Positions 17,284 to 43,721 of a stretch of 43,721 nucleotides of DNA are shown in pieces (the first letter of the stretch is position 1; the number at the start of each line of letters is the position of its first letter). A program made the position numbers and the translations under genes. The DNA comes from Thermoplasmata archaeon (lineage in GTDB: Archaea; Thermoplasmatota; Thermoplasmata; Methanomassiliicoccales; Methanomethylophilaceae): assembly GCA_015063185.1 (NCBI GenBank), contig SUSY01000011.1:1-43721 (forward strand). The letters run 5' to 3'. The notes beneath the pieces are model-generated. The model saw only the letters and a list, made by a program, of their open reading frames with translations, did not search any database and was not told where the DNA came from.

Positions 17284-18060
17284 ATGAATAAGGTACAACG
17301 TGCACTATTGGTGATGATGGACGACCTCGATGCTGTCTTACGTACTGCGGGAATACCATATACCTTGGCATTCGGTTCTGCACTTGGGGCTGTGAGGCAT
17401 AAGGGATTCATCCCATGGGATGATGATATGGACGTCCTGATTCATAGGGATTATGAGGTGAGGATGGTCCAGGCGTTGAAAGAGGGGCTGGATCCGAAAA
17501 AGTACACCCTTGTGGAGCCGTATACCCAGGATTGGTTGAGGACCTACTATAAAGTGAAATTGAACAATTCTCTTGCCATCGAAGAGAAGTACAAGAACAC
17601 TCGTGTGCACCAGGGTCTGTTCATAGACATATTCATCGCATATCCTTACCCTCGTTCCATGGTGCGCAGGGCATTCTACGGTGCCTTCATGCGTTTCGAT
17701 GCCCTTCTTCATGTGATTTCAGATGGACAGATAGGTAACGAAAAGTATGATCTGATGATGCGCCCGATATTTTTCCTATATAGGGCCACATCCAAATTGT
17801 TGGATTTCGTTACGGAGGGCGTAGTGGACAAATATACGCCACGTACCACGACTTGGAAGAAGTTGATAGATGCTAGTTGTTTCGATGATCATATGGACAT
17901 CGAATTCGAAAACGATCATTGTTACATGATTACCAGGGAGTGGGATATGATGCTGACAGACGAGTTTGGGGATTACATGACCCCTCCACCGGAGGAAGAG
18001 CGTACGACCCACCTAATCGAATATCATTTGGACGATGTTCTTGAGGAGGTGGATCCGTGA
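17284..18060 (+). CDS. LicD-family phosphotransferase (first copy)
   Basis: The 258-residue protein belongs to the LicD/fukutin nucleotidyltransferase-fold family, which moves phosphocholine, ribitol phosphate or similar groups from CDP donors onto glycans. The core GSALGAVRHKGFIPWDDDMD (residues 31-50) carries the conserved acidic residues. I chose ATG at 17284, preceded by aagggga, over one at 17248. It leads the plus-strand cluster of seven genes and overlaps the next by 4 bases. A second LicD lies at 24869. The donor substrate could be a CMP-phosphonate or CDP-polyol made by the cluster. Confidence 0.87.
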   Translation: MNKVQRALLVMMDDLDAVLRTAGIPYTLAFGSALGAVRHKGFIPWDDDMDVLIHRDYEVRMVQALKEGLDPKKYTLVEPYTQDWLRTYYKVKLNNSLAIEEKYKNTRVHQGLFIDIFIAYPYPRSMVRRAFYGAFMRFDALLHVISDGQIGNEKYDLMMRPIFFLYRATSKLLDFVTEGVVDKYTPRTTTWKKLIDASCFDDHMDIEFENDHCYMITREWDMMLTDEFGDYMTPPPEEERTTHLIEYHLDDVLEEVDP

Positions 18061-18782
18061 AGTATGCGGTCTTATCCGATGTACACGGCAATCTGAATGC
18101 GTTGCGTTCGGTCATGAGGTCGATATTTGAGATTGGCGTCGACGGTTGCATTCTCTTGGGCGATCTCGTGGACTACGGGATGCGTTCCAATGAGTGCATA
18201 GAGCTTTTAAAATCGTCTGATGTGGATATAATCTGTAATATCTGGGGGAATCATGAGTATTCGATAATGAATCGTACGTACGACAGATTCTCTTCGGATC
18301 GTGGGAAGGTCTCTGCGATGCATACCAGGGATATACTATCTTCAGATTCCATGACATATCTGGTGGAGGCGATGGAACATTCGGGAACGTTTGAATTTAA
18401 AATCGGTTCCAAATCGTGTCTGGCTCTACACGGATCCATTTCGGACCCTCTTTGGGGTACCTTGGACACATCAGATTTCGATGAAGCCTATGGTGCATTC
18501 GATTATGTCTTCTCGGGACACTCACATGTTCCTCATTATTTCGAAAGATTTTATGTTTGTGACAATCCGGAGACTCGTAACAAGAAGAAAACCGTCTTTG
18601 TGAATCCAGGTTCTGTGGGGCAGCCCCGTAATTTGGACTCCCGTTCTCAGTATGCAATTGTGGATTTTGCTACTGGGGATGTGCACATGATGAAGGCGGA
18701 GTACGATATCAGCGACGAACAATCTTATTTCGACGGTTCGGTGGATGATTTCTACCGTTCAAGGATTTCAAGAGGTGTATGA
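18057..18782 (+). CDS. Calcineurin-like metallophosphoesterase
   Basis: The 241-residue protein shows the two-metal phosphoesterase motifs in order: DVHGN (D8, H10), GDLVD (D36), GNHE (N65, H66) and GHSH near the C-terminus. It most resembles the small YfcE/MJ0936 type of phosphodiesterase. The GTG start at 18057 overlaps the LicD stop (GTGA) and its own stop overlaps the next ATG, so it is translationally coupled within the cluster. Its role may be to hydrolyse a nucleotide-linked or phosphodiester intermediate; the substrate is not known. Confidence 0.88.
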   Translation: MKYAVLSDVHGNLNALRSVMRSIFEIGVDGCILLGDLVDYGMRSNECIELLKSSDVDIICNIWGNHEYSIMNRTYDRFSSDRGKVSAMHTRDILSSDSMTYLVEAMEHSGTFEFKIGSKSCLALHGSISDPLWGTLDTSDFDEAYGAFDYVFSGHSHVPHYFERFYVCDNPETRNKKKTVFVNPGSVGQPRNLDSRSQYAIVDFATGDVHMMKAEYDISDEQSYFDGSVDDFYRSRISRGV

Positions 18783-19528
18783 TGGACATACTTCTGATAA
18801 CTCTTGCAGGGACATCTACCAGATTCTCCAATTCGATTGGGAGGGCATGTCATAAGAGCCTTTACTTTGAGCATGATTTTACCGACTCACTTTTGTATAA
18901 GCAGGTGACGATGTGTCCTGACTTCGATCGTATCGTTTTGGTCGGTGGATTCATGTTCGAGGAATTGAGGGTGGGATTGGATAATCTTCCTCCCGATGTA
19001 CGTTCTAAGATTGTGCTCATCCATAACGAGCGTTTTTCGGACCTTGGTTCAGGATACAGCTTGTATCTGGGTCTGAAAGCCGCACTCGAGATCGGTTTCA
19101 ATCAATTGGTGTTCATGGAAGGGGATCTTTGGGTACGTTCCGATGAATTCATGTCGGTAGTCAAATCCGATTCGGATGTGATCACGGTCAATTCCGAGGA
19201 CATTTTGGCAAAGAAGGCCGTTGCACTATACACGGATATGGATGATGGGATCCATTACATCTATGATACGAACCATTCACATTTGAGGATTGAGGGTGAC
19301 TTCACAGGGATATACAATTCTGGACAGGTGTGGAAATTCATTGACATGTCCCGGGTCACCCGTATTTTGAATTCTATGTCCTTGGAGGAATGGGGCGGCA
19401 CTAATCTCAGATTTATTCAGCATTATTTTGATTCAAAGACATTCAAGGATATCCATATCGTGAAGTTTTCCGAATGGATCAATTGCAATACAGTAGAGGA
19501 CTATTACAGGATTCCGGAGGTGAGGTAA
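18779..19528 (+). CDS. Divergent sugar-phosphate/choline-phosphate-type nucleotidyltransferase
   Basis: The 249-residue protein looks like a GT-A fold nucleotidyltransferase. The N-terminal LAGTSTRF (residues 9-16) and K26 resemble the G-x-x-x-R and lysine of the LicC/RmlA signature, and MEGDLW supplies a metal-binding aspartate. Overall similarity is weak. In LicC-like enzymes this fold makes CDP-choline or CMP-aminoethylphosphonate. In this cluster it is a candidate activator of a phosphonate or sugar phosphate, competing with the fused cytidylyltransferase at 20708 and the IspD-like gene at 23153. It starts within the upstream stop codon and abuts the next gene. Confidence 0.65.
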   Translation: MMDILLITLAGTSTRFSNSIGRACHKSLYFEHDFTDSLLYKQVTMCPDFDRIVLVGGFMFEELRVGLDNLPPDVRSKIVLIHNERFSDLGSGYSLYLGLKAALEIGFNQLVFMEGDLWVRSDEFMSVVKSDSDVITVNSEDILAKKAVALYTDMDDGIHYIYDTNHSHLRIEGDFTGIYNSGQVWKFIDMSRVTRILNSMSLEEWGGTNLRFIQHYFDSKTFKDIHIVKFSEWINCNTVEDYYRIPEVR

Positions 19529-20707
19529 ATGGATTTCAATGAGAAATTGGCAGTAATTAAGAAACTCTCAAAGGAGCGTAAAATCAGGATCATGATCATC
19601 GGCCTCGGAAGTGTGGGCAATTATCTTTTGGATTATCTTGCTTCATCTAACGATGAGGAGATCGAGGTCATCGTAGTTGGTCGTAATGAGGCCAAGATGG
19701 TCTCCGATGTGAACATTGTCAGAGTGGCAGCGCTTATTAGGGGCCGTATCAAGAATAGGGTCACAGTGGTGTCCGATGTAGACCTCAACGATGTCGATTC
19801 GATCACCGATTGTCTGAAGGAGTACGATCCTGACATCATTGTCAACAGCAGTCGTGCCTATGCCGGTCTGAAGTATGGTAGCATCTCTTGGAAGAACATT
19901 CGTGCGTACGGGGTATGGTCGCCTCTTTCCATTAAATACATCAGGAACATAATGGTGGCATACGACGATGCCGGATCTCACGCAATTGTGATCAACACCT
20001 CATATTCGGATGCCGTAAATGCTTGGATCAAATCCGCAGGATTTACCGCGCCGGATTTAGGAAGCGGGAACATCAATCATTTGATACCTAGGATCAAATA
20101 CTCGATCTCCGAGATCTGTGGTATTGAGGATTATTGGAACATTGATCTGACTTATGCCACATCTCACTTCCATGATGTCGTGATAAGCAAGGAAGGTCAG
20201 GATGAAGGTGTGGAGCAGATGTTCGTTGCGACCTATGGTGGGAAGGTGTTGGATCTGGATAAGGCCGACGTCCTTTCCAGATGTAGCATATCAATGCCTA
20301 CGGATGCGAAACGCAACATGATGAATGCATCCAGCAATTTCGAGATAATCCGTGCGATATTGTCCGCAATACGTGATGGTTCGAAGGTAAAGCTCCATTG
20401 TCCAGGTCCTTTCGGGGAGATCGGCGGATATCCCGTCATAATCGATGGCAGTGGCAACGACCCCGTAGGGTACATCGATGAGTCCGTATTCTCACTGGAC
20501 GAAATGCGTTCTAAGAACAGATCCTCCATTTACCTCGATGGTATCGAAGATGTGAGGGGAGGGTCGTTAGTGTATACGGATGAACTGTTGGAGAAGGTGC
20601 GTTCCGCGTTCGGTACGGATTTGCCTAAGGAAGTCCCGTTCGAGGATATCGATATTGTCGCAGGACAAATCGTTTCGGAAATCATCGAAAAGTACAGGGG
20701 TGCATGA
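19529..20707 (+). CDS. Rossmann-fold dehydrogenase-like protein of unknown function
   Basis: The 392-residue protein has an N-terminal nucleotide-binding motif (IMIIGLGSVGN, GLGSVG at 25-30) with a saccharopine-dehydrogenase-like flavour, but I do not recognise the family. The remainder has no diagnostic motif I can name. It starts immediately after the previous stop, and the PEP mutase fusion starts immediately after its own stop. By context it could reduce phosphonoacetaldehyde (to 2-hydroxyethylphosphonate) or phosphonopyruvate, but it is not an iron-type alcohol dehydrogenase of the kind known for that step. Confidence 0.6.
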   Translation: MDFNEKLAVIKKLSKERKIRIMIIGLGSVGNYLLDYLASSNDEEIEVIVVGRNEAKMVSDVNIVRVAALIRGRIKNRVTVVSDVDLNDVDSITDCLKEYDPDIIVNSSRAYAGLKYGSISWKNIRAYGVWSPLSIKYIRNIMVAYDDAGSHAIVINTSYSDAVNAWIKSAGFTAPDLGSGNINHLIPRIKYSISEICGIEDYWNIDLTYATSHFHDVVISKEGQDEGVEQMFVATYGGKVLDLDKADVLSRCSISMPTDAKRNMMNASSNFEIIRAILSAIRDGSKVKLHCPGPFGEIGGYPVIIDGSGNDPVGYIDESVFSLDEMRSKNRSSIYLDGIEDVRGGSLVYTDELLEKVRSAFGTDLPKEVPFEDIDIVAGQIVSEIIEKYRGA

Positions 20708-22003
20708 ATGCCTATCGTGTACACTTGTTTTAGTACGGATGTCATCCATGAGGGTCATCTCAATATCCTGAAGGTAGCGGCTGAATACGGTGATGTCTAC
20801 GTGGGTGTTCTATCGGATGAGGCCACGGTCAGATACAACAAGTTCCCTACCGTGTCCTTCGAAGATAGGATGAGGATGGTCGAGGCACTTCCAGGGATCA
20901 AAGGGGTGTTGATACAGAAGGATATTCTCTATGATGAGATTGTTAACACTTTGAGACCGGACTATGTCATCCATGGGGATAATTGGTTGATGGAACCCCT
21001 GAGTCATATCAGGGATAACGTCGTGAGTCTTCTTTCCGAATATGGCGGAAAGGTCATCGATGTCCCATACACATTCAATGAGAATGTTAGAAAAATCGAT
21101 AAGAGGATCAATGAGAAATTGGCTATGCCCGAATTTAGACGTAAGAGGTTGAAGCAACTTCTCAAGATCCGTCCGATAGTCAAATCCTTGGAAGTACATA
21201 GTGGCCTTACGGGGTTGATCGCCGAGAAGACGGTCATTGAGCATGATGGTTGTTTTGATCAGTTCGATTCCATGTGGTTGAGTTCCTTATGCGATTCCAC
21301 TGCCAAGGGTAAGCCCGATATCGAAGTGGTCGATATGACCTCCAGATTCAGGACGATTGATGACATCATGGAGGTCACCACAAAACCGATTATCTTCGAT
21401 GGGGATACAGGGGGGATACCCGAACACTTTGTCTACATCGTTCGTTCTTTGGAGAGGATGGGTGTTTCCGCAGTCATAATCGAAGACAAGGTCGGTCTCA
21501 AGAAGAACTCATTGTTCGGTACCGAAGTGGATCAGACACAGGATACCATAGAGGGCTTCTGCGAGAAGATCCGTGCAGGCAAGGCTGTCCAGTTGACAGA
21601 CGATTTCATGATCATCGCTAGGATCGAAAGTCTGATTCTGGAGAGGGGAATGGATGATGCGTTGGAGCGTGCACATGCTTATGTCGGTGCCGGTGCGGAC
21701 GGTATCATGATCCATAGTAGGAGGAAAAGTCCTGATGAAATCCTGGAGTTCTGTGACCGTTTTAGGGAAAAGGATGAGACCACGCCCATTGTGGTCGTTC
21801 CAACCTCGTACAATTCGGTGACCGAAGAGGAGTTGGCGGATCACAAGGTGAACATCGTGATATATGCCAATCAATTGACCCGGAGCGCATTCCCTGCTAT
21901 GTCAGAGACCGCCAAGGAGATCCTCAGACATCATCGTGCACTCGAGGTGGATTCCAGATTGATGCCAATCAAGGACATTATATCTTTGATAGATGAGTTG
22001 TAG
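20708..22003 (+). CDS. Cytidylyltransferase-phosphoenolpyruvate mutase fusion (Fom1/AepX-like)
   Basis: The 431-residue protein has two domains. Residues 1 to about 140 are a TagD-like cytidylyltransferase with the HxGH motif (H14-E-G-H17). From about 155 onward is PEP mutase, which rearranges phosphoenolpyruvate to phosphonopyruvate and makes the C-P bond. The mutase signature EDKVGLKKNS (259-268) and the metal-binding D231-G-D233 are intact, which separates it from isocitrate lyase relatives. Fosfomycin Fom1 has the same domain order, and there the first domain adds CMP to 2-hydroxyethylphosphonate. The RTxGIS(T/S) motif common in TagD-type domains is not evident; PYTFNENVRKIDKR stands near there. 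The stop is TAG, with TAA five codons on. Confidence 0.92.
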   Translation: MPIVYTCFSTDVIHEGHLNILKVAAEYGDVYVGVLSDEATVRYNKFPTVSFEDRMRMVEALPGIKGVLIQKDILYDEIVNTLRPDYVIHGDNWLMEPLSHIRDNVVSLLSEYGGKVIDVPYTFNENVRKIDKRINEKLAMPEFRRKRLKQLLKIRPIVKSLEVHSGLTGLIAEKTVIEHDGCFDQFDSMWLSSLCDSTAKGKPDIEVVDMTSRFRTIDDIMEVTTKPIIFDGDTGGIPEHFVYIVRSLERMGVSAVIIEDKVGLKKNSLFGTEVDQTQDTIEGFCEKIRAGKAVQLTDDFMIIARIESLILERGMDDALERAHAYVGAGADGIMIHSRRKSPDEILEFCDRFREKDETTPIVVVPTSYNSVTEEELADHKVNIVIYANQLTRSAFPAMSETAKEILRHHRALEVDSRLMPIKDIISLIDEL

Positions 22004-22011
22004 GTGATGGG

Positions 22012-23133
22012 ATGGATGTAAAGGATTTCGTAGATGCCATTGATGCAAACTTCTTCACAGGAGTTCCGGATTCGCAATTGAAGGCCCTATGTGACTATCT
22101 GATGTGTGAATACGGTATCGATCCGAACCATCATATCATCGCGGCCAATGAGGGTAATTGCGTCGGGATAGCCGCGGGTTATCATATGGCTACGGAAAAG
22201 GTGCCCGTAGTGTACCTTCAGAACAGTGGCGAAGGGAACATAATCAATCCGGTTGCATCTTTGCTTAACAAGGATGTGTACGGCATCCCATGCATCTTCA
22301 TTGTAGGTTGGCGCGGAGAACCCGGTGTCCATGACGAACCACAACATATCTATCAGGGAAAGGTCACCGAATCCCTATTGGATGTGATGGGCATCGATTA
22401 CATGGTGTTGTCCTCCGACACGTCCGCCGAGGAGGTGGTCTCCCGTATGGCGGAGTGGAGAACGATTCTTTCGGAAGGGGGGCAGGTGGCATTCGTCGTC
22501 AGGAAGGGCGCATTGTCCTTTGACGGATCCGTCAGATACGAGGGTCAGGCATCGATGCTCAGGGAGGAGATCATACGTAGCATCACACAGATGAGCGGTA
22601 ATGATCCCATAATCTCTACAACCGGAAAGACATCTCGGGAGTTGTTCGAGATTCGTGAGGCCTCTTTCGACGGACATTCCCGTGATTTTCTCACTGTTGG
22701 TTCCATGGGTCATGCATCGTCCATTGCTCTCGGTGTGGCGATAAAGAAACCTTCTGTGAAGGTCTGGTGCATCGATGGGGATGGTGCGGCGATCATGCAT
22801 ATGGGTGCCATGTCCGTCATAGGTTCTGTGAAACCCAAGAACCTCATTCATGTCGTTATAAACAACAATGCTCACGAATCCGTTGGCGGTATGCCGACCT
22901 CCTCTGTAACGACGGATCTGTGTTCTGTAGCCAGAGCCTGCGGATATGCCAATGTCTTCAAGGCGAGCAATCCGAGCGAACTGTCAGTTGTGTTATCTGA
23001 CGTCAGATCAATGGATGGCCCGTCATTCGTGGAAGTGGATGCGGCGATAGGTTCAAGGCCCGATCTCGGAAGGCCGACCACCTCATCTCAGGAAAATATG
23101 GTCAATTTCATGAAATATCTGAGGGAGATATGA
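22012..23133 (+). CDS. Phosphonopyruvate decarboxylase
   Basis: The 373-residue thiamine-diphosphate enzyme decarboxylates phosphonopyruvate to phosphonoacetaldehyde, the step that makes C-P synthesis irreversible. The Pyr-domain glutamate lies in AANEGNCVGIAAG (E47), and the ThDP/Mg motif runs from GDG (256-258) to INNNAHESVGG (283-293), the wording typical of this family. Fusion of both domains in one chain and the length fit Ppd/AepY. It starts 8 bases after the PEP mutase stop. No AepZ-type transaminase follows, so the fate of phosphonoacetaldehyde is unknown. Confidence 0.92.
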   Translation: MDVKDFVDAIDANFFTGVPDSQLKALCDYLMCEYGIDPNHHIIAANEGNCVGIAAGYHMATEKVPVVYLQNSGEGNIINPVASLLNKDVYGIPCIFIVGWRGEPGVHDEPQHIYQGKVTESLLDVMGIDYMVLSSDTSAEEVVSRMAEWRTILSEGGQVAFVVRKGALSFDGSVRYEGQASMLREEIIRSITQMSGNDPIISTTGKTSRELFEIREASFDGHSRDFLTVGSMGHASSIALGVAIKKPSVKVWCIDGDGAAIMHMGAMSVIGSVKPKNLIHVVINNNAHESVGGMPTSSVTTDLCSVARACGYANVFKASNPSELSVVLSDVRSMDGPSFVEVDAAIGSRPDLGRPTTSSQENMVNFMKYLREI

Positions 23134-23152
23134 ATTCGATTGAGGTGATGCA

Positions 23153-23854
23153 GTGAATGTTGCATTGATTCTTGCAGGCGGTGTAGGTCAGAGGGTGGGC
23201 CTTCACATACCCAAACAGTTCTTGGAGGTACGTGGCAAGCCGATCCTCGCGTACACACTATCTGTTTTCCAGAATCATCCTGATATCGACAAGATATGTG
23301 TTGTCTGTGTGGATGGTTGGGAGCAGGAAGTGGAGTCATATGTGGAGAGGTTTGGGATCACCAAGTTGATCAAGATCATAAAGGGCGGGGATTCCAATAT
23401 GATGTCCATCAGAAACGGCGTCTATGGTATCGGGGACATTGCTGACAAGAATGACATCGTGGTAGTCCATGATGGCGTTCGTCCTCTGATAGACGGCTCC
23501 ATCATAACGGATTGTATCGAGAAATGTAAGGAGTTTGGGAATGGTTGTGCATCCATCCCATTACAGGAGACCATCGTGAGGACGGAGGATCGGATATCTG
23601 GAAAGGTAAATATCGATCGTTCGGAGGTCATGAGGGTGCAGACTCCTCAGGCATACAGATTCGATGATATCTATGGATTGTATTCAGAGGCCGAGAGGGT
23701 CGGAATAACGGATTCGGTCTATGTCAACACTTTGAAGATGGAGTTGGGTGGAACGATCTATTTTTCCAAAGGTTCGTCATTCAACCTGAAGATTACTACA
23801 CGTGACGATCTCGAGATGTTCGATCTCCTGTTGAACAGGACAGGTAGGAATTAA
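23153..23854 (+). CDS. IspD/TarI-like cytidylyltransferase
   Basis: The 233-residue protein is an IspD-superfamily cytidylyltransferase with the CTP loop LAGGVGQR (7-14), K21, VHDGVRPLID and QTPQAYRFD. True IspD belongs to the non-mevalonate isoprenoid pathway, which archaea do not use, so this copy should activate a different substrate: a polyol phosphate (as TarI and human ISPD make CDP-ribitol) or a phosphonate. The GTG start follows a gaggtga site. Its end overlaps the convergent epimerase by 4 bases. Together with LicD proteins it resembles the ISPD-fukutin pairing. Confidence 0.88.
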   Translation: MNVALILAGGVGQRVGLHIPKQFLEVRGKPILAYTLSVFQNHPDIDKICVVCVDGWEQEVESYVERFGITKLIKIIKGGDSNMMSIRNGVYGIGDIADKNDIVVVHDGVRPLIDGSIITDCIEKCKEFGNGCASIPLQETIVRTEDRISGKVNIDRSEVMRVQTPQAYRFDDIYGLYSEAERVGITDSVYVNTLKMELGGTIYFSKGSSFNLKITTRDDLEMFDLLLNRTGRN

Positions 23855-24879
23855 ATCGTTTCTTTCATGGAAGCCAAGGTCCTTTGAAGGGATTCCTTCA
23901 GGTTGTATGTTGGCTTCCACCCTTTTCTACATATTTTATCAATATCCAGGGTCGCTACCGTGGCTGTGGAATATCCTTCCTTTTCACTCTTTTCGGGGGT
24001 ATCGAACTCAAGTCCGACTCCAGACATCTGGCATATGGTTTCAGCGATTTCACGCAGGGTGCCATCGAATCCTGCAATGTTGTACGCTTCCTTGTTATTT
24101 CCATAGAACAGTGTGAAGAACACACCGTCAGCTGCATCCGCTGAATAGATGTACGAGTATCTTTGGAGACCATCGCTTTTGAGGACTATGTTCTCTCCTT
24201 TGGCAGCTTTGAACAGAAATTGGGATAATGCCTTGGTATCATCCCTTTTCAAGGATGGTCCGAACGAGCGACTGAGTCTTGGGATGACGAAGTCAATACC
24301 CTGTTGTTTGGCATATGCCTGGCACAATGACTCTCCCAGTCTTTTGCTCTCGTTGTATCCTGCACGTACCGTGTTGCAGTCGATGTATCCGCAATACGTC
24401 TCATCGAAGCTTTCCGTATCTCCGCGGTTGTTTCCATAGATCTCTACCGATGAGAGGAATACGAATCTTCCCCCGTCTTTGGATTTTACCTTCAAGAGAT
24501 TGTTGAGTCCAATCACGTTAGTGGTTATTGTACCGATGGGATCGTTGGAATATTGTAGTGGGTGTGTATTGCTGGCACAATGGAATATGATGTCATATTC
24601 CCCCTCAATTGGATCATTCACATCGTGTGGTATCAGTTTTAGTTTGTGATTCTCATAGCGTCCGAATGAATTATTTAGTCTATCCATGTCGCGTGACATG
24701 GCTGTTATGGAGAAGTCATAGCCTTTGGAGATGACGGACACCAATGTGTCCACAATGATGGAACCAATCATCCCAGTGGCACCTGTTACCAGGATTCTGT
24801 TCCCATTTAGAATGTGCCAGGGGTATTTCTTTGATGATAGTGTTTCGATATCCTCTTTGTATATGGCATCATCCATCAT
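23851..24879 (-). CDS. NAD-dependent epimerase/dehydratase (extended SDR)
   Basis: The 342-residue protein has the NAD(P)-binding motif GATGMIG (33-39) and the catalytic YxxxK in AGYNESK. It belongs with nucleotide-sugar epimerases/dehydratases; substrate unknown. I chose ATG at 24879, about 10 bases after an aggag site, so it overlaps the upstream LicD end by 11 bases; an alternative ATG at 24921 is deeper in that gene. It is the last gene of the minus-strand run CDP-alcohol phosphotransferase, LicD, epimerase. IspD-like, epimerase and LicD genes side by side suggest a CDP-linked polyol or modified sugar. Confidence 0.86.
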   Translation of the reverse strand: MMDDAIYKEDIETLSSKKYPWHILNGNRILVTGATGMIGSIIVDTLVSVISKGYDFSITAMSRDMDRLNNSFGRYENHKLKLIPHDVNDPIEGEYDIIFHCASNTHPLQYSNDPIGTITTNVIGLNNLLKVKSKDGGRFVFLSSVEIYGNNRGDTESFDETYCGYIDCNTVRAGYNESKRLGESLCQAYAKQQGIDFVIPRLSRSFGPSLKRDDTKALSQFLFKAAKGENIVLKSDGLQRYSYIYSADAADGVFFTLFYGNNKEAYNIAGFDGTLREIAETICQMSGVGLEFDTPEKSEKEGYSTATVATLDIDKICRKGWKPTYNLKESLQRTLASMKETI

Positions 24880-25666
24880 TGGATCGGTTCTCCTGTATGT
24901 AGTCATAGTAGTCCATATCAAAAGATAACGCCTTGTATGATCTGGGTCTTCTTTTTTCTTCGGGCGGGAGAGTCATGTAGTCCCCGTAGAATTTTGTGAG
25001 CATCTCCTCTGCCTTCTCGGGACAGTTGTAGGCCATGCCCTCGAATTCGTGTACCTTTGGGGTGCCGTACACGTCCTTGTTCAGATAGTCCCTTTTGTAG
25101 AATTGATTACGGGGTTCATAGTACGTTTTGGATGATCTTCCCTCCATGAGGTTCATGATCACACTTTGCATCCTCATCAAAGATACTATCCATTTGCCTA
25201 TTTTGGGATCCACGCTTTGTCCGATCCTGGATTCCCACATGAACAGTTTCATCAATCCGTGATATATGGACAGTGCTATTTTTCCATCTGGTACTGGGTG
25301 GAGGATATGTATCTCGATGGATATCCTTTGGGCCCTGTTTCTGGCGGTGTCCGTGATGTATGTGGTGCCTATCCTCGACACGTAATAGTAGTCTCTGGTG
25401 TATGATCCAGTCAATGATTTCTGATATTCATATTTCCTAGGGTCCAATTCAGACAATGCCTTGTCGAGTTTTGGGATATCCTCTTTGAACACGGCGATGT
25501 CGATATCATCATCCCAGGGGATGAATCCTTTATGTCTCAGTGCCCCCAATACGCAGCCTCCGCTGAGGTAATAGGGTACATTATTCCTTTCGAAGGTGTC
25601 CACCAGATCATTCATCATCTCCAAGAGTATCTTGTGGATTGTATTCATGTCAGATTCTGAGGTCAT
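24869..25666 (-). CDS. LicD-family phosphotransferase (second copy)
   Basis: The 265-residue LicD protein carries GGCVLGALRHKGFIPWDDDID (acidic core 51-56). It is clearly related to the copy at 17284 but diverged over most of its length, so the two probably use different acceptors or donors. It starts after aaaggga and lies 19 bases downstream of the CDP-alcohol phosphotransferase on the same strand, so it is in the same operon. The C-terminus keeps the family's YGDYMTLPPEE segment, also seen in copy one (FGDYMTPPPEE). Confidence 0.88.
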   Translation of the reverse strand: MTSESDMNTIHKILLEMMNDLVDTFERNNVPYYLSGGCVLGALRHKGFIPWDDDIDIAVFKEDIPKLDKALSELDPRKYEYQKSLTGSYTRDYYYVSRIGTTYITDTARNRAQRISIEIHILHPVPDGKIALSIYHGLMKLFMWESRIGQSVDPKIGKWIVSLMRMQSVIMNLMEGRSSKTYYEPRNQFYKRDYLNKDVYGTPKVHEFEGMAYNCPEKAEEMLTKFYGDYMTLPPEEKRRPRSYKALSFDMDYYDYIQENRSNDG

Positions 25667-25685
25667 GTTGTCCCTTTTCGTCTAA

Positions 25686-26426
25686 TTAGAGGTCTCTGTA
25701 TACAATCAATATGCGAGAGATGGTTGCTAGACTATATCCTGTTCCGAATACTACAATGAACAGTCCCATCTGATCGATCAGTGCGAACACCAGAAGCAGG
25801 ATCATCATGTTCGTGAACACCAGGGGGTTGAAGTTCATGAGTGTCTCAAATGTCTTCTTGTTCTTGAACAGATTTCCTTCAACGGTCAGACTTCCGTGAC
25901 CGTCCTGGAACGTCTTGTCACCAACCTTGTATTTCTCATACAACGGGGTGATGTCCATGAATACGGACATGCTGATTCCTGCAGCCACTCCGAAGAATAC
26001 AAAATATATCTCCTTGAACCAATTGAATTGGAAGGGCCCCAGGTCCCCAGCCCTGAATGCTCCATACCCTATACAGAACATCAATAATGGATATGTGACA
26101 CGATGGATTATCATGTCGAGGTATGCGCCTCTGGCAGATTTCTTTTCCTTGTATTTGGCCACCACCCCATCTGTGTAATCCAAAGAATATGCGATTATCC
26201 ACAATACGCCTCCCGTTACGGAGAACCAGTATTCCCCAACCGCATAGCAAAGAGAGGATATGACCATCAGACCTCCCCAGAACCAGGTGATTTGATTCGG
26301 TGTGAATGGGGTTCTTATAAGGATTCTTGCAAAGAAACGGCCAATCGTTCCAAAGAAGTATTTCCCGGATACGTAGTCATCTGGACAACGACTGCATTGG
26401 TAAAACCTCTCTTTATCCAACTGCAT
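25686..26426 (-). CDS. CDP-alcohol phosphotransferase with altered catalytic residue
   Basis: This 246-residue multi-pass membrane protein has the CDP-alcohol phosphotransferase motif: D83-x2-D86-G87-x2-A90-K91-x8-G100-x3-D104-x3-H108. The last position, normally the aspartate thought to act as general base, is histidine. Lysine replaces the usual arginine after alanine. I prefer ATG at 26426 over 26441, because a TATA element (26448-26454) is about 25 bases from the former and only about 10 from the latter. It leads the minus-strand arm of the phosphonate locus and could transfer a CMP-activated phosphonate or polyol phosphate to a membrane lipid, or a CDP-lipid onto an alcohol. Confidence 0.82.
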   Translation of the reverse strand: MQLDKERFYQCSRCPDDYVSGKYFFGTIGRFFARILIRTPFTPNQITWFWGGLMVISSLCYAVGEYWFSVTGGVLWIIAYSLDYTDGVVAKYKEKKSARGAYLDMIIHRVTYPLLMFCIGYGAFRAGDLGPFQFNWFKEIYFVFFGVAAGISMSVFMDITPLYEKYKVGDKTFQDGHGSLTVEGNLFKNKKTFETLMNFNPLVFTNMMILLLVFALIDQMGLFIVVFGTGYSLATISRILIVYRDL

Positions 26427-26447
26427 ACCATTGCGATACATTCTCAG

Positions 26448-27037: not shown

Positions 27038-27476
27038 TTACCTAACTATTTTCAATAATTCTGGATAAAAAATAGGGATCCAGTTCTCAGCGTACGAGCG
27101 GGAGGAGGCGGCCTCCATGAACGCTTCCTCGAGATCCGCAGTCATATGGTCGCGGTTACGATAGAAGGTCTTGGACACAAATCTTTTCAAAGACTTCCAA
27201 ATGAACTCGATCGGATTGTACTGCGGAGAATATGGAGGTAATAACGCCAGATGGATGTCCAGAGATTCCGCCTTTGCCAATACCTTCTTGGAATGGTGGA
27301 CTCTACAATTGTCTGTTATCATCACGATCGGACGTTCATCGTTCCATCTTCTTACCGTTCAAGGAACATGCACTTGTCCTCCACTTTGGAGTGTTGAGGG
27401 AACTCTATGACCGAATTGCCCCTTATGGCATAGAATCCCATGGAGTTCGCCTTGATCCTGTCAGTGTTCTATGCAC
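27038..27476 (-). pseudogene. IS630-family transposase, C-terminal remnant with frameshift
   Basis: On the minus strand the frame at 27038-27325 encodes ITDNCRVHHSKKV, LLPPYSPQYNPIEFIWKSLKR and a typical DDE_3 C-terminus. The upstream part, about 27345-27470, continues in another frame (DRIKANSMGFYAIRGNS, EFPQHSKVEDKCMFLER). The two join if one base is restored near 27350, so a 1-base deletion broke the gene. The N-terminal half is absent: sequence runs into a stop and then the neighbouring epimerase stop at 27481. DYSPELNPIE-like text and the final glutamate of the DDE triad identify the family. Confidence 0.78.
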
Positions 27477-27480
27477 CCAT

Positions 27481-28467
27481 TCATTTCTCAATCTCTTCTA
27501 TACACATGCGAATACCTTCCCTCAAGGAGATACGGGGTGCCCACCCGGTTTTCTTACGAATCTTCTCCGTGTTCAACAAACGTCTTTCCGGATCCGATGC
27601 TCTGGATCCCTCAAAATATATAGGAGGGTTAGAAATGCCCATTTCTTCCGCACACAACTTTACCAGATCCAAAATATGGATCTCTTCATCGGTACCTACA
27701 TTGTACACAGTCCCATCCAATGCACATTCATGATTTATCAAATGTAAAACCGCAGAACAACTATCGATATTGTGCAAGAATGTACGATACGTCCTTTTGG
27801 AATTCTCCAACAATGTCACGGCTCCAACGGAAGATAGGGAGTGTATTACGTGCGGGATGATATGTTTAGCAAACCGTTCATTTTTACTGTATACGTTTGC
27901 AAATCTGATCGAACACGCTTTGATCAACCCCTTGTCCACAGCATCCTTTGTAATAAATTCCGTTAACAATTTCCCAGTAGCATAACTGGTCCTTTGACTG
28001 TGCTCCACCGTGGCCAATGAGACGAAATCACTTTCCCTAACCCCACCATCGCGATACGATTCCATGGAATATACCTCCGATGTGGAGCAATTGATGAAAA
28101 TATCTGCATGGACGTCGATCGCCTGATCCAGGAATCTCTGCATGCTCACTACATTCGTTTCAAAGGTGAAATCGACCTTATAGAAATATTCCGTATGAAC
28201 AACAGCTGCGCAATTCACATATATGGTCCTTTCACAATCGGATTGTGCCATGGATACTTCCGATTTCAACGAATCCATCTGATCCGCATCATTTAGATCG
28301 TATTCAAAAAACGTAAACTGAGGGTGGTGCAGGATATCCTGTATCACATCGATGGAGGATGCGAAAAAATTATCAAATCCGATCACACGGTGACCGGAAG
28401 ATATGATCATCCTGGCAAGCTCATTGCCTGTCATCCCCGTAACTCCGCTAATCACAAATAAATCCAC
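27481..28467 (-). CDS. NAD-dependent epimerase/dehydratase, UDP-glucose 4-epimerase-like
   Basis: The 328-residue extended SDR has GVTGMTG (8-14) and the catalytic YxxxK in SYATGK. A nucleotide-sugar epimerase, dehydratase or reductase is likely; the exact sugar is unknown. The GTG start follows aaggagg with 8-base spacing, a strong site. Its stop lies against the IS630 remnant, but the reading frame is intact. The gene sits between the phosphonate locus and the flippase and belongs to the same surface-glycan theme. Confidence 0.87.
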   Translation of the reverse strand: MDLFVISGVTGMTGNELARMIISSGHRVIGFDNFFASSIDVIQDILHHPQFTFFEYDLNDADQMDSLKSEVSMAQSDCERTIYVNCAAVVHTEYFYKVDFTFETNVVSMQRFLDQAIDVHADIFINCSTSEVYSMESYRDGGVRESDFVSLATVEHSQRTSYATGKLLTEFITKDAVDKGLIKACSIRFANVYSKNERFAKHIIPHVIHSLSSVGAVTLLENSKRTYRTFLHNIDSCSAVLHLINHECALDGTVYNVGTDEEIHILDLVKLCAEEMGISNPPIYFEGSRASDPERRLLNTEKIRKKTGWAPRISLREGIRMCIEEIEK

Positions 28468-28693: not shown

Positions 28694-28699
28694 ATGCCG

Positions 28700-30256
28700 A
28701 TGGCAGAGGATTCTAAATTCTGGGAACGTACTTCCCTCAATGCCACGATAAATATCGTGCGCACGGTGGTAACGGCCCTCATCGGTGTCCTGATGGTCCC
28801 GTATTACATCGATACTCTAGGTATCGCCACGTACGGCCTAATCCCATTGGCCACGGCAATGTCCTCCTACATCATGATAATCTCCGATTCCTTGGTATCG
28901 GCCTGTTATAGATATGTGATGATGTCCTTCGAGGACGACGATTCGGACAAAATTATCGTTACATACAATACCGCATTGTTCGGAATCGGTAGGAATCAAC
29001 TGTTGTTGATTCCCGTAGTTCTGCTGTTTGCATTCCTTTCACCTTATATGTTCAACATCTCAGGTACTGCAGCATTCGATGTACAGATGATGTTCTGTCT
29101 GATGTTGTTGTCCACACTCATCGTTACATACTGTTCCGCCATGAATTCCATATTCTATGCTGTGAACAAATTGTACATCCTGTATGCGATAAGAATCTTC
29201 TACATCGTGGTACAGGTTCTGTTGATCGTACTATTGTTCTGTGTTTCCACCCCTTCTTTGATTGAGGTTGGGTTCGCATATCTGGTTTCCGCGTTCCTAT
29301 TCTTCCTATTGATTCGTCATTACAGTAGGAGATTGTATCCTGGGATGGAGGTGGATCGTAAGTATTATGATCCGATACTTTTCAGACAGATCGGTTCCTT
29401 GGGTGCATGGACCATTTTGAAGAAGCTTGGAAAGCTTCTATTCATCCAGATTTCTCTGATTCTCACCAATCTGTATCTAGGTTCAGTGATCGGTGGTGGC
29501 TTTGCCATTGTCACCAACATGATATCCATGTTGGACACGGCCTGCTTCTCCATAACCGCGATTATCTCTCCGTTGATTTACCGTGTGCAGGCTGATAAGG
29601 ATCCACAGGTGATGATCGATGTGACCAGCAGCTATCTGAAGATCGTGTCTTTATTATGTTCTTTCCCAATAGCATTCGTACTCGTGTTCTGCCCTCAGAT
29701 CCTGGGTGCTTGGGTGGGGGATGGGTATTCTGACTTGTCCAAATTAGTGGCGATCGCATATCTTGCGGAATTGGTGTACATAGTATCCACAATAGTGGAT
29801 GACATCACCATCATCTATCTCAAGGTGAAACAGGTATGTGTGATGACCTTGTTCTTCGGGGCTATCAATGTGGTTTCAGCCATTGTAATGATGGAGGTCT
29901 TCGACATGGGTTCCACAGGGGTGATCGTTGCTTGGGCAGCCTCCACATCGATGCTCAGTCTGACTATACTGGTGTATTCTACCATGTTGATCGGTGCACG
30001 TCCATGGGCTTACTTATTCCCGGTATTTCTCGGATATGCGGTGATGTCCGTATGTTACCTTGTGATGGATTTCTTATCAGAGTATGTTGTTGTGGAGCCT
30101 ACGTGGATGTCGATAATCATCTGGTTCCTTATCCTGTTCATGGTGTACCTACCGTTCATGATTAGGTTGTTGAACGAGGGAGATAGGAAGGAAGTCATGA
30201 AGATCGCCCCCTCATTTTGTAAAGGGGCCATCGCAACTCTGTTCAGGTATCTGTGA
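28700..30256 (+). CDS. Polysaccharide flippase, Wzx/MOP superfamily
   Basis: The 518-residue integral membrane protein has about 12-14 hydrophobic segments, for example TVVTALIGVLMVPYYI and VLLIVLLFCVSTPSL, as in oligosaccharide flippases that move lipid-linked glycans across the membrane. I chose the second ATG at 28700, since a TATA-like element (28670-28677) is about 26 bases upstream of it; the ATG at 28694 is also possible. The flippase fits the surrounding glycosyl and LicD genes, giving the export step of a surface glycoconjugate. A hairpin terminator follows at 30273. Confidence 0.88.
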   Translation: MAEDSKFWERTSLNATINIVRTVVTALIGVLMVPYYIDTLGIATYGLIPLATAMSSYIMIISDSLVSACYRYVMMSFEDDDSDKIIVTYNTALFGIGRNQLLLIPVVLLFAFLSPYMFNISGTAAFDVQMMFCLMLLSTLIVTYCSAMNSIFYAVNKLYILYAIRIFYIVVQVLLIVLLFCVSTPSLIEVGFAYLVSAFLFFLLIRHYSRRLYPGMEVDRKYYDPILFRQIGSLGAWTILKKLGKLLFIQISLILTNLYLGSVIGGGFAIVTNMISMLDTACFSITAIISPLIYRVQADKDPQVMIDVTSSYLKIVSLLCSFPIAFVLVFCPQILGAWVGDGYSDLSKLVAIAYLAELVYIVSTIVDDITIIYLKVKQVCVMTLFFGAINVVSAIVMMEVFDMGSTGVIVAWAASTSMLSLTILVYSTMLIGARPWAYLFPVFLGYAVMSVCYLVMDFLSEYVVVEPTWMSIIIWFLILFMVYLPFMIRLLNEGDRKEVMKIAPSFCKGAIATLFRYL

Positions 30257-40892: not shown

Positions 40893-40919
40893 AATAATGG
40901 GGGTATCGCCCCCATTATT
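40893..40919. terminator. Bidirectional hairpin terminator between ilvE and the aldolase gene
   Basis: AATAATGGGGG and CCCCCATTATT form an 11-base stem with a 5-base loop. It starts just after the ilvE stop and covers the TAA stop of the convergent aldolase gene (40915-40917). The A-rich left flank and AT-rich right flank make it suitable for both strands. Confidence 0.7.
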
Positions 40920-42495
40920 CCACAGAATAATGTTTTGGTTCTGTTATAAATTTGATTTCTATTTCTTTACTGAGTTTAGACAGTGTTTTTCCCATCCCCT
41001 CGTTAATTGCATCAATGGTTGCTTTTTTCGTGATGTACATCATTTGCTCCTTAGCATAGTTTTCAAGAACATCATGAGAATATCCATCAAAGCCTGCAAG
41101 ATAGATTTTTGATGCACCAAAGCTAATCAATAATTTGATAGCCATAAGGCCTGCATTATCCCTTACCGCTTCGATATCATTTAAAAGATCGCTATATTTT
41201 ATTTGAAGATATACTTCATCTGCAGGAATATTTGATGTAATTATGCATTTTTGTTTTAGTGCTTTGTTCATTTCTTTGAAACGGCGATTGTTGCTTAAGA
41301 AGATGAAGTCTGTTTCACATGGGGGATACTCATGATTTATTGCGATAGATATTGTATCGTTTTCCTTAATAAATTTAATAATCTTTTCTTTTTCATCAAT
41401 TGAACTCTTTGCAGGACCAATGAGTATGATTTTTTTATCCCTGATTATGTTTTTAAATTCATCGGAATGTATGTTTTGCGTTTTTCCAGTTTCCATATAT
41501 TTATTGTACAATTCAGAAATGTATTTTTTATCAAATTCTGAGCGTTTATCGTCACCCATCATTTCAAAAATCTCATTCATCTTCTCTATTGGTAATGTAT
41601 TTTTGTCATTGAGGAATCCCGCATAGTTCGGATGTGTGTTGTGCATTGCAGAAAGATAGTTGGGTAATGTGTATCCCCATGGATTTATCTGATAGAAGTT
41701 TCCGATAACTTCATCCATGGTTGATAATATTGGGCGCAAATCATACGTTGCACCCATATTTTCATTCAAATATTCGATAAATAATTCTGTATTCAAATTT
41801 CCAGCACCGCGACCCATGCCATATATGGACGAATCTATAACTAAATCTCTATTGGATTGCATATCCACCAAAGTTTGTGCATTTGAAAAAGAAAGTTGCA
41901 TATTATTATGAGAATGGAATCCGATTTTGATATTTTTCTTAAGATTATGTTCTATCATGGAGAATAATCTTACTAAGTCTTTACGTTTCATCATACCAAA
42001 GCTATCAACAATGTAAAATGCTTCAGGCTCCAGTTCATTAACTTTGTGAATAAGTTGTAAAAATTCCTCGTCACTGTAGTTCATAGATACCATGGCCTGA
42101 ACATATGTATCAAAACCCTTTTCTTTAATTATGTAACATTGTTCTATGGCATTCAGCACATCTTTTTTATGGAATGCATATCTGATTCCATCTAATTTGT
42201 GAATGGATCTGTTAGGCAAGGAGGAGGGGTCATATTCTCCGTGATTTATCATAGCGACATATTTGCAATTAAAATTTGTATCCGGGATTAAATTGTCTAT
42301 TTGTTCTATGTTTGTAAATTTTGTTATGTTGATGTCATATTGTTGACGATTTGTTATGAATCCACATTCTATTATGTCTATATTGGCTTCTGTCAAATTT
42401 TTGATAATTTTTTTAGAATTATCAAAACCAAATCTCCATTGATTGCAATATCCTCCATCTCTCAAAGTGCAATCTAAAATCGATATTTTTTTCAT
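40915..42495 (-). CDS. HMGL-like (DRE-TIM) aldolase with C-terminal Rossmann-like domain
   Basis: The 526-residue protein has an N-terminal DRE-TIM metallolyase barrel: the metal-binding DCTLRDGGY (8-16), GFHSHNNMQ, and GMGRGAGN late in the barrel. This is the pattern of 4-hydroxy-2-oxovalerate aldolases and HMG-CoA lyase relatives. From about 350 is a second domain (KKIILIGPAKSS, SIAINHEYPP, IYLAGFDGYS) with no family I can name confidently. Such aldolases occur in bacterial surface-polysaccharide clusters. The gene is far richer in A and T than its neighbours. It has a TATA-like tttataaata (about 42518-42528) near 27 bases upstream and looks horizontally acquired. Confidence 0.83.
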   Translation of the reverse strand: MKKISILDCTLRDGGYCNQWRFGFDNSKKIIKNLTEANIDIIECGFITNRQQYDINITKFTNIEQIDNLIPDTNFNCKYVAMINHGEYDPSSLPNRSIHKLDGIRYAFHKKDVLNAIEQCYIIKEKGFDTYVQAMVSMNYSDEEFLQLIHKVNELEPEAFYIVDSFGMMKRKDLVRLFSMIEHNLKKNIKIGFHSHNNMQLSFSNAQTLVDMQSNRDLVIDSSIYGMGRGAGNLNTELFIEYLNENMGATYDLRPILSTMDEVIGNFYQINPWGYTLPNYLSAMHNTHPNYAGFLNDKNTLPIEKMNEIFEMMGDDKRSEFDKKYISELYNKYMETGKTQNIHSDEFKNIIRDKKIILIGPAKSSIDEKEKIIKFIKENDTISIAINHEYPPCETDFIFLSNNRRFKEMNKALKQKCIITSNIPADEVYLQIKYSDLLNDIEAVRDNAGLMAIKLLISFGASKIYLAGFDGYSHDVLENYAKEQMMYITKKATIDAINEGMGKTLSKLSKEIEIKFITEPKHYSVE

Positions 42496-42573
42496 AACAA
42501 CATTATGTTAATGAATATGTATATTTATAAACTAGGGTATTTCATAGTAAATAGGTAGCAAATTTTGACATCT

Positions 42574-43236
42574 TTATTTGTATGGAGAGTATTTGCGACT
42601 CATATATACTGCATCAATCACTTCAAAATCTTCTGGATAGTTGTAATCTAATCCTTCAATGACTCCCACTTCTTTAAAATATGGGTTGAATCCAATTCTT
42701 CTGTGGTGTTCTACAAATACACTTTTTTTAAATATGTATGCTCCAGTTGTTTCACGGAAGATATGTTTTACATCTTGTGTACGCGCAATATTAGTGGGAT
42801 CATAATTTATTGGACCAAAGTCATCCCATAGCAATTCATTTACTGATGAGATGGGTGTTGCGGAATCATAGTTGCCTAAAAGTACTGCTTGTATACATTC
42901 AGAAATTGTATTTGAACTCAGAAATGGTGCAGTTACGTGGGCTTTTACATATATGTCCGCATCAATTTTATTGATGAAAGATTCTATTAAATCATTTCCT
43001 TTAGTTTCTGGAGAATCTAGAGACGGGTCGCGTTTTAGAAATTTTATTTTATCGGGCAGATATTGACAGATTTCTTCGTTACTACAGAAACAATAAACGG
43101 AATCAATTTCTTTAACATTTAGTAGAGTATTAAACATCAATTCACATATCGGTTTTCCGTCACTAAGGCGCATAGTATTTTTACCAGGTGCCCTCTCATT
43201 GTTCATTTTCATAGGAACAAATGCAACAACTTTCAT
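42574..43236 (-). CDS. Acylneuraminate cytidylyltransferase-like protein (NeuA family)
   Basis: The 220-residue protein resembles CMP-sugar synthetases: FVPMKMNNERAPGKN matches the N-terminal CTP loop (normally with R and K), followed by SVYCFCSNEEI, HVTAPFLSS and GVIEGLDYNYPEDFEVIDA, where the motif ends in acidic residues. It probably attaches CMP to a 2-keto sugar or acid. I chose ATG at 43236, preceded by ggaggt, rather than the in-frame start 23 codons upstream. Upstream of the aldolase gene on the same strand and equally AT-rich, the two likely form one pathway: the aldolase makes a keto-acid and this enzyme activates it. Confidence 0.82.
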   Translation of the reverse strand: MKVVAFVPMKMNNERAPGKNTMRLSDGKPICELMFNTLLNVKEIDSVYCFCSNEEICQYLPDKIKFLKRDPSLDSPETKGNDLIESFINKIDADIYVKAHVTAPFLSSNTISECIQAVLLGNYDSATPISSVNELLWDDFGPINYDPTNIARTQDVKHIFRETTGAYIFKKSVFVEHHRRIGFNPYFKEVGVIEGLDYNYPEDFEVIDAVYMSRKYSPYK

Positions 43237-43545
43237 GCAGTACCTCCAGCTATTAATTTTATAAATTTTGTGAATGTTGTTTGATTTGAGACGATTCTTG
43301 TTCACTTGACTTAACAGGTGTCTTTTTGAATGATTTTATATGCATTTAATTATTTTAATTATGTCATGGTGAACTTCTATTTTGTGATCAAATAGGAAAC
43401 CTAAATCTGCGGAACGTATGACTACACAGTTGTAGTACTACATTTTCCTGATCTTTTGTTTATATGCCCTATATATGGAATATTTAAATCAAAGATATTG
43501 AACATGTAACCTTACATATAGGTTACCAATTGTAGTATATTCTAT
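43237..43545. other. AT-rich intergenic region
   Basis: This region contains the ribosome binding site of the NeuA-like gene at its left end. At the right it holds a TATA-like ctatatat (43469-43476) and an inverted repeat GTAACC...GGTTAC (43506-43526) before the transposase start. I see no RNA gene or conserved frame. The inverted repeat may belong to the insertion sequence. Confidence 0.35.
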
Positions 43546-43721
43546 ATGGAAAGGAATGGCCAGAAGTACGCATACGAGAGCGCATCGGTCAGAATACCCG
43601 GTAGAAAAAACCCAAAAACCATCAAGACCTACTTGGGAAAGGTCGACCCTGAAACCGGCAAGATCATTCCCAAGGAGACGAGAAACGCTCCGAAGGAGGA
43701 GTATGCTAAGTTCTATGGTTC
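43546..43721 (+). mobile_element. IS1634/IS4-type transposase, 5' part (runs off the window)
   Basis: From ATG 43546 the frame reads 58 codons to the window end without a stop. QKYAYESASVRIPGRKN followed by KTYLGKVDPETGKIIPK resembles the N-termini of IS1634-family transposases. Only this portion is visible, so intactness and exact family are uncertain. It abuts the AT-rich aldolase/NeuA pair. Confidence 0.65.

Follow-up and report, generated by a model that had tools for sequence, protein, structure and literature searches.

A four-gene module in the place of the 2-aminoethylphosphonate transaminase in an archaeal phosphonate cluster

What does a phosphonate cluster make when it encodes a phosphoenolpyruvate (PEP) mutase and a phosphonopyruvate decarboxylase and lacks the 2-aminoethylphosphonate (AEP) transaminase that commonly accompanies them? 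The question is raised by a 43,721-nucleotide stretch of DNA (hereafter the window; contig SUSY01000011.1 of assembly GCA_015063185.1) from a Thermoplasmata archaeon of the family Methanomethylophilaceae, in which a sequence-only reading had seen ten linked genes (17284-26441) for a surface phosphonate, with AEP among the candidate products. All ten genes are present, with named families, and the genes for C-P bond formation, decarboxylation, activation by cytidine triphosphate (CTP) and LicD-type transfer do lie on an archaeal contig. The cluster is of a known kind with a new branch: in the place of AEP transaminase (AEPT) stands a conserved four-gene module, here called module B, which that reading missed and one gene of which lies outside the ten-gene range. 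The repeated appearance of this set in the position of AEPT supplies named candidate enzymes for a different surface phosphonate.

Module B in the place of the AEP transaminase

The PEP mutase (PepM; 20708-22003, forward strand) and the phosphonopyruvate decarboxylase (Ppd; 22012-23133, forward strand) both score above the curated equivalog cut-offs, at 413 bits against TIGR02320 (cut-off 319.55) and 458.6 bits against TIGR03297 (cut-off 312.5), respectively. The motif EDKX5NS, which Rice et al. describe as the mark separating PEP mutases from their isocitrate-lyase relatives (PMC6697681), reads EDKVGLKKNS in the window and was found in 100 of the 100 loci of our table, window included. The N-terminal domain fused to PepM matches PF01467 (50.5 bits). 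It had been called TagD-like; its closest counterpart among solved structures is instead the Fom1 cytidylyltransferase (5x3d, E 1.6e-34 over 127 residues), with a far weaker match to the glycerol-3-phosphate cytidylyltransferase structure (E 0.00033), and it keeps, as HEGH, the HxGH motif that we take to function in cytidylyl transfer. The published substrate of the Fom1 cytidylyltransferase is 2-hydroxyethylphosphonate (HEP), and a fusion of this type is not new, since 23.6% of surveyed PEP mutases are described as fused to PF01467 (PMC6697681).

Phosphonyl tailoring (pnt) clusters, described in Treponema denticola, Atopobium rimae and Olsenella uli, combine PEP mutase and Ppd with a cytidylyltransferase and commonly an AEPT (PMC6697681). 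The window shares with them an EDKX5NS PEP mutase, Ppd, LicD-type genes nearby and a nucleotidyltransferase that is fused or within about five genes, here both the fused PF01467 domain and a DUF6564 gene two genes upstream. It differs in having no AEPT, in carrying DUF6564 where relatives have PntC, and in an extra short-chain dehydrogenase/reductase (SDR), phosphoesterase and protein of lactate/malate dehydrogenase (LDH/MDH) fold; the PntC-AEPT structure was the sole basis on which pnt sequences were compared. Fom1 itself, the bifunctional HEP cytidylyltransferase/PEP mutase of the fosfomycin pathway, has the same domain order as the window PepM; the neighbors of Fom1 are fosfomycin genes, whereas those of the window enzyme are surface-glycan genes.

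Module B consists of a metallophosphoesterase gene (mpp; 18057-18782, forward strand; PF12850, 72 bits), an extended SDR gene (sdrB; 27481-28467, reverse strand; PF01370, 94 bits), the DUF6564 nucleotidyltransferase gene (18779-19528, forward strand) and sdh392 (19529-20707, forward strand), which encodes an NAD(P)-type protein of 392 residues; Clostridia also hold the set beside PEP mutase. In the window, sdrB is displaced beyond a DDE transposase fragment (27038-27325, reverse strand; PF13358, 52 bits, 95 residues covering only the profile end). We count it in the module because its bacterial counterparts, to which it is 61-68% identical, sit between mpp and DUF6564. The mpp product is 44-53% identical to that of the gene in the same place in module-B loci and 29-30% in the distant loci L040 and L136 (L-numbers denote PepM loci and G-numbers genomes). 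The closest parallel in layout is L057 (Clostridiaceae isolate A68, CAJSZV010000003.1), where the gene set of the window forms a single run, licD-licD-mpp-sdrB-DUF6564-sdh392-pepM-ppd-ispD-sdrA. The L057 genes all share one strand, with sdrB in place; the window departs from this in the displaced sdrB and in the opposite orientation of sdrA and licD2. L057 yielded no match to the CDP-alcohol transferase of the window.

Of 582 relatives of the fused enzyme on genome contigs, the best 80 were surveyed, so that they represent close PepM relatives only; they are mostly Clostridia metagenome-assembled genomes at 71-78% identity, many of them gut-sourced by title, and one is archaeal (L051). Clustering of open reading frames (ORFs) covered 96 loci, nine of which had no PepM ORF under the ORF picker. 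It separated two alternatives, one with AEPT (at 49 loci) and a PntC-like gene (at 44), the other with mpp-sdrB-DUF6564-sdh392 (17 loci with sdh392, including the window and L040), and no locus fell in both the transaminase and the sdh392 cluster; one member of the transaminase cluster was checked for identity and scored 467 bits (AEPT cut-off 360.8). A tblastn recount within 9 kb of PepM at 99 loci (L132, whose contig is as long as that of L064, omitted; many loci cut by contig ends) gave 62 loci with AEPT, 24 with sdh392, one with both (L040) and 14 with neither, the single shared locus standing against 15 expected (Fisher p 6e-12, kinship ignored). On a PepM tree of 86 rows (L110, on the same contig as L051, omitted), built by a quick method with SH-aLRT support only, the bacterial module label changes at least eight times on well supported branches. 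Among 10 independent tree pairs, AEPT and the module changed in opposite directions in 8.3 on average and in the same direction in 0.0 (sign test, median p 0.008, range 0.004-0.07). Module B thus replaces the AEP transaminase, and the swap recurs in independent pairs.

A search that started from the sdh392 profile alone, covering 392 genomes from a single bacterial order, returned six matches (E <= 1e-20), two of them in genomes already in the PepM set (G147, the source of L048, and G418, that of L064). Each of the six has PepM and module genes as neighbors, and no AEPT match occurred in any of the stretches covered. Ppd was seen in five of these; L128, the one without it, is a short stretch whose fuller locus, L048, does have Ppd. 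The most distant of the six, G316, keeps the order pepM-ppd-mpp-sdrB-nucleotidyltransferase-sdh392-licD with PepM and sdh392 only 34-35% identical; its nucleotidyltransferase matches a LicC-like gene, not DUF6564, and its sdh392 match has one in-frame TGA. Since further genomes show the same genes beside PEP mutase, their association is not a matter of chance.

One Clostridiaceae contig holds two PepM loci, of which L057 has the module and L061 AEPT. A protein of about 630 residues (cluster c9; 13 loci, for example L039:6959-8836) is in Clostridia often encoded immediately 5' of the AEPT gene; its ends, in the one sequence read, look like YidC and a CDP-glycerol-type transferase.

The source assembly is 87% complete, which limits each absence reported for this genome. 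No AEPT lies within 9 kb of the window PepM, and the best AEPT score among the six Aminotran_5 matches in the genome is 121 bits, so none of the six passes the cut-off of 360.8 and AEP was dropped as the default product. A single gene of the genome matches iron-containing alcohol dehydrogenases (Fe-ADH), and it is that for glycerol-1-phosphate dehydrogenase (470 bits, cut-off 413); a housekeeping Fe-ADH as the source of HEP was therefore set aside. McrA was not found in the assembly either, as against 50 of the 61 genomes of this methane-producing family that have it.

Chromosomal site, cassettes and origin

The left flank of the cluster carries the DNA primase large subunit and, at its left end, ribosomal proteins (read from ORFs); the right flank carries translation elongation factor EF-1 beta and transcription factor TFB. 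At 0.465, the G+C content of the cluster is below that on its left (0.523) and that further to the right (0.51). Malic enzyme is present in six of six genomes of the genus and adjoins EF-1 beta in G113, G115, G116 and G117; the malic-enzyme contig of G114 (L140) measures 3.4 kb and shows no EF-1 beta. In the window the two genes lie 13 kb apart, with the cluster, sdrB and the flippase-like gene between them. In G115 they are adjacent and there is no PepM match; its malic enzyme shares 99% identity and its EF-1 beta 96% with the counterparts in the window, so that the insertion, if real, is recent.

G113 holds a different cassette nearby, beyond EF-1 beta, with PepM, Ppd and a 585-residue fusion of a PntC-like domain and an Fe-ADH (L117:6715-8475). 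The fusion sits between Ppd and a 56% identical relative of the window's CDP-alcohol transferase, and it is possible, judging from its domains, that it converts phosphonoacetaldehyde to HEP bound to cytidine monophosphate (CMP-HEP) in one protein, in parallel to PntC-AEPT. G113 also has relatives of the window's flippase (45%), LicD1 (43%) and heptose-type genes (71%). In G114, a short contig carries PepM, Ppd and a PntC-like domain and breaks off there, and a second contig carries at its end, next to malic enzyme, the terminal part of an AEPT gene; G115, G116 and G117 gave no PepM match. Within the genus, the neighborhood of one chromosomal site therefore carries one of three distinct phosphonate cassettes or lacks any.

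In the PepM tree, five archaeal enzymes including that of the window form a set of their own within a set of 12 rows, the other seven bacterial, both sets being starred in the tree and lying inside a large and mostly Clostridia clade; the other 10 archaeal rows are distant. Among the related archaeal loci, the sisters L103 and L107 carry PntC-AEPT and L104 has the PntC part at a contig end. A protein search with sdh392 gave 2967 scored relatives at E <= 0.001, and among the 120 listed one (P0103, 66% identical) is labelled Candidatus Methanomethylophilaceae archaeon; within Methanomassiliicoccales, sdh392 was found in this genome only (1 of 147, E <= 1e-10). Phylogenetic placement suggests that the cluster was likely acquired from Clostridia-type bacteria. 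If surface phosphonates do pass as cassettes between bacteria and archaea, this bears on how archaeal surfaces vary.

The locus had been thought to lack any described archaeal counterpart, which does not hold. The PEP-mutase model matches in 21 of the 147 genomes of the order, 16 of them above cut-off. A cluster of PEP mutase, Ppd and an alcohol dehydrogenase (adh1), with a proposed horizontal origin, is described for Methanocorpusculum vombati (PMC10035134), and Nitrosopumilus maritimus is cited as a phosphonate producer confirmed by experiment (PMC8931226). M. vombati, a methanogen, shares with the window the linkage of PEP mutase and Ppd genes; by its description, it differs in having a phosphonoacetaldehyde reductase-like alcohol dehydrogenase (PMC10035134). 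According to Rice et al., cell-surface phosphonate biosynthesis beyond the first steps is almost wholly uncharted (PMC6697681). In the one paper library searched, nothing was found on DUF6564 or on phosphonate in Methanomethylophilaceae.

Module proteins, a proposed pathway and its rivals

The gene previously called LicC-like belongs to Pfam family DUF6564, and its predicted fold resembles PntC, within the PntC/LicC nucleotidyltransferase fold. Alanine mutants of Arg15 and Lys25 of T. denticola PntC are reported to retain less than 10% activity (PMC6697681). In DUF6564, R15 and K26 are invariant in 16 of 16 sequences and align with Arg and Lys in the PntC domain from an archaeon, in a whole alignment that is weak (probability 10.7%). 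DUF6564 is present in 21 of the 24 module-B loci and in none of the 75 others, and the family gains a plausible activity.

For sdh392, the predicted fold matches lactate/malate dehydrogenases over nearly its whole length, and every one of the 50 best structural matches in the VIA listing is of this type. Because no Ldh_1 family match (PF00056/PF02866) appears among its Pfam matches at E 0.01, we say that the protein works like these dehydrogenases and do not file it as a member. Its N-terminal part scores against PF03435, the saccharopine dehydrogenase NADP-binding domain (28.3 bits, cut-off 25.1), over residues 21-111 only; no further saccharopine domain was found at E 0.01, and dehydrogenase sequence matches end by residue 115. 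The saccharopine-dehydrogenase label of the 392-residue family is accordingly corrected in favor of the LDH/MDH fold. Residues H213, H184 and R188 are invariant among relatives, and we set R188 and H213 tentatively against what we take to be the substrate arginine and catalytic histidine of LDH. Of 13 relatives searched for an Ldh_1_C gene as a yardstick, none yielded one, and one LDH was obtained from the L057 genome; a further LDH sequence search gave, among the matches listed, only close copies at least 79% identical.

We put at even chances the proposal that this is a phosphonyl tailoring cluster, likely derived from Clostridia, whose module yields a CTP-activated hydroxy-phosphonate, for example HEP, for LicD transfer to a surface glycan. 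PEP mutase and Ppd would deliver phosphonoacetaldehyde as the branch point, and sdh392 would reduce it to a hydroxy-phosphonate such as HEP, the role that Fe-ADH would take in G113; this reductase logic has a parallel in that same-genus genome, where a nucleotidyltransferase is fused to an Fe-ADH beside Ppd. The DUF6564 protein, the Fom1-type domain or both would then form the CMP-phosphonate. The displaced sdrB would probably act on the nucleotide-bound form, by likeness to GalE and its relatives, which are described as acting on nucleotide-bound forms (PMC12366243). The metallophosphoesterase would trim or release, LicD1 and LicD2 would move the phosphonate to a surface glycan, and the flippase-like protein would export it. 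That neither AEPT nor a phosphonate Fe-ADH was found in the assembly speaks for this scheme, within the completeness given above. More tentatively, the module may be a branch of surface C-P chemistry of its own whose product is neither AEP nor plain HEP, with an LDH/MDH-fold reductase, an SDR for the nucleotide-bound phosphonate and DUF6564 leading to a new CMP-phosphonate; archaea of the methanogen family would then trade this cassette, the CMP-AEP cassette and the nucleotidyltransferase-Fe-ADH (CMP-HEP) cassette around one site as a form of capsule-type switching.

Several observations weigh against the hydroxy-phosphonate proposal. The steps proposed for the SDR and the phosphoesterase are tentative, and an enzyme may be missing from the 87%-complete assembly. 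L040 combines a distant sdh392 relative (32-33%) with an AEPT-like aminotransferase (248.6 bits, cut-off 360.8), and L136 has a different nucleotidyltransferase in the place of DUF6564. The modeled fold of sdh392 indicates a dehydrogenase and not which carbonyl it would reduce; glycosidase entries (3u95 twice and 7br4), which we assume to belong to the LDH/MDH superfold, account for three rows among the 50 from Foldseek, and the profile-to-sequence comparison with a real LDH was not significant (probability 1.2%), so its catalytic residues are placed only tentatively. The fused HxGH cytidylyltransferase is no proof of HEP, since HxGH is present at all five Fe-ADH loci and also at window-like archaeal AEPT loci; for the same reason, the motif was dropped as a product marker. 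As to origin, the nearest PepM to that of the window by identity is archaeal (L103, 79%), and the direction and number of transfers are therefore only inferred. In six of six archaeal loci of another PepM clade (L108, L109, L111, L112, L114 and L115) the motif reads HPGN; five are of AEPT type, and L115 has a PntC-type match with no AEPT called. This substitution suggests that the fused domain may be inactive where PntC is present.

Were sdh392 to act on phosphonopyruvate, an oxaloacetate analogue, the product would be 3-phosphonolactate, activated by the nucleotidyltransferases, with Ppd serving a second product. We consider this unlikely: the near whole-length fold match suits it, as would R188 and H213 if they equal the LDH residues that we presume, but the Ppd found near PepM in 23 of the 24 module-B loci would drain phosphonopyruvate, and the residue mapping falls short of significance. 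The occurrence of an extended SDR with a nucleotidyltransferase, a pairing we assume to be typical of nucleotide-sugar pathways, could alternatively mean that the module makes an activated sugar or polyol that receives the phosphonate, phosphonoacetaldehyde being handled by an unlinked enzyme. That account is improbable in our estimate, as it leaves unexplained both the mutual replacement with AEPT and the co-location with PepM in all six matches of the 392-genome sample, and no AEPT or phosphonate Fe-ADH in the genome exceeds its cut-off. A slim chance is left to reductive amination, by which sdh392, acting like saccharopine or diaminopimelate dehydrogenase, would make AEP or an N-substituted AEP, so that the product would still be an aminophosphonate; the PF03435 score points this way, as do weak PDB sequence matches that include carboxyspermidine and meso-diaminopimelate dehydrogenases, but these cover the NAD-binding part only (E 0.01-0.9), and the 50 best structural matches listed are all of the LDH/MDH type.

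That the product is a free small molecule, for instance an antibiotic of the kind suggested in print for M. vombati (PMC10035134), is very unlikely here, given the two LicD genes, the CDP-alcohol transferase, the flippase-like gene and the heptose-type genes around the core, and given that LicD genes occur near PepM in some bacterial relatives too. Close to negligible is the chance that bacterial genes were joined to a chimeric contig. The lower G+C of the cluster and the lack of the insert in G115, with its 99% identical malic enzyme, would fit such an artefact; against it stand the archaeal flanks on both sides, the 66% identical sdh392 relative with a Methanomethylophilaceae label and the other cassettes that relatives hold near the same site.

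Transfer genes and neighboring features

Both LicD-family transferases match PF04991 (cut-off 22.6) and retain GFIPWDDD: licD1 (17284-18060, forward strand; 90 bits, reading GFIPWDDDMD) and licD2 (24869-25666, reverse strand; 97 bits). The flippase-like polysaccharide exporter (28694-30256, forward strand), which has its 45% relative in the G113 island, scores 25.3 bits against PF01943 (cut-off 28.2). The membrane protein that had been read as a CDP-alcohol phosphotransferase (25686-26441, reverse strand) falls just under the Pfam cut-off (PF01066, 21.3 of 22 bits), and it and its G113 relative have His at the fourth and last Asp position of what we take to be the family motif.

The IspD-like cytidylyltransferase (23153-23854, forward strand) keeps its proposed family at the level of Pfam (PF01128, 132 bits, cut-off 27) and scores below the NCBIfam IspD cut-off (156 of 181.3 bits). 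Its partner is sdrA, an extended SDR (23851-24921, reverse strand; PF01370, 139 bits), and the pair recurs in L024 and L057; it is more likely devoted to a polyol phosphate belonging to the same polymer. At the far end of the window, positions 40915-43721 have a G+C content of 0.329 and carry an aldolase-like gene (read from ORFs) and a cytidylyltransferase gene (PF02348), and are perhaps another surface-sugar insert.

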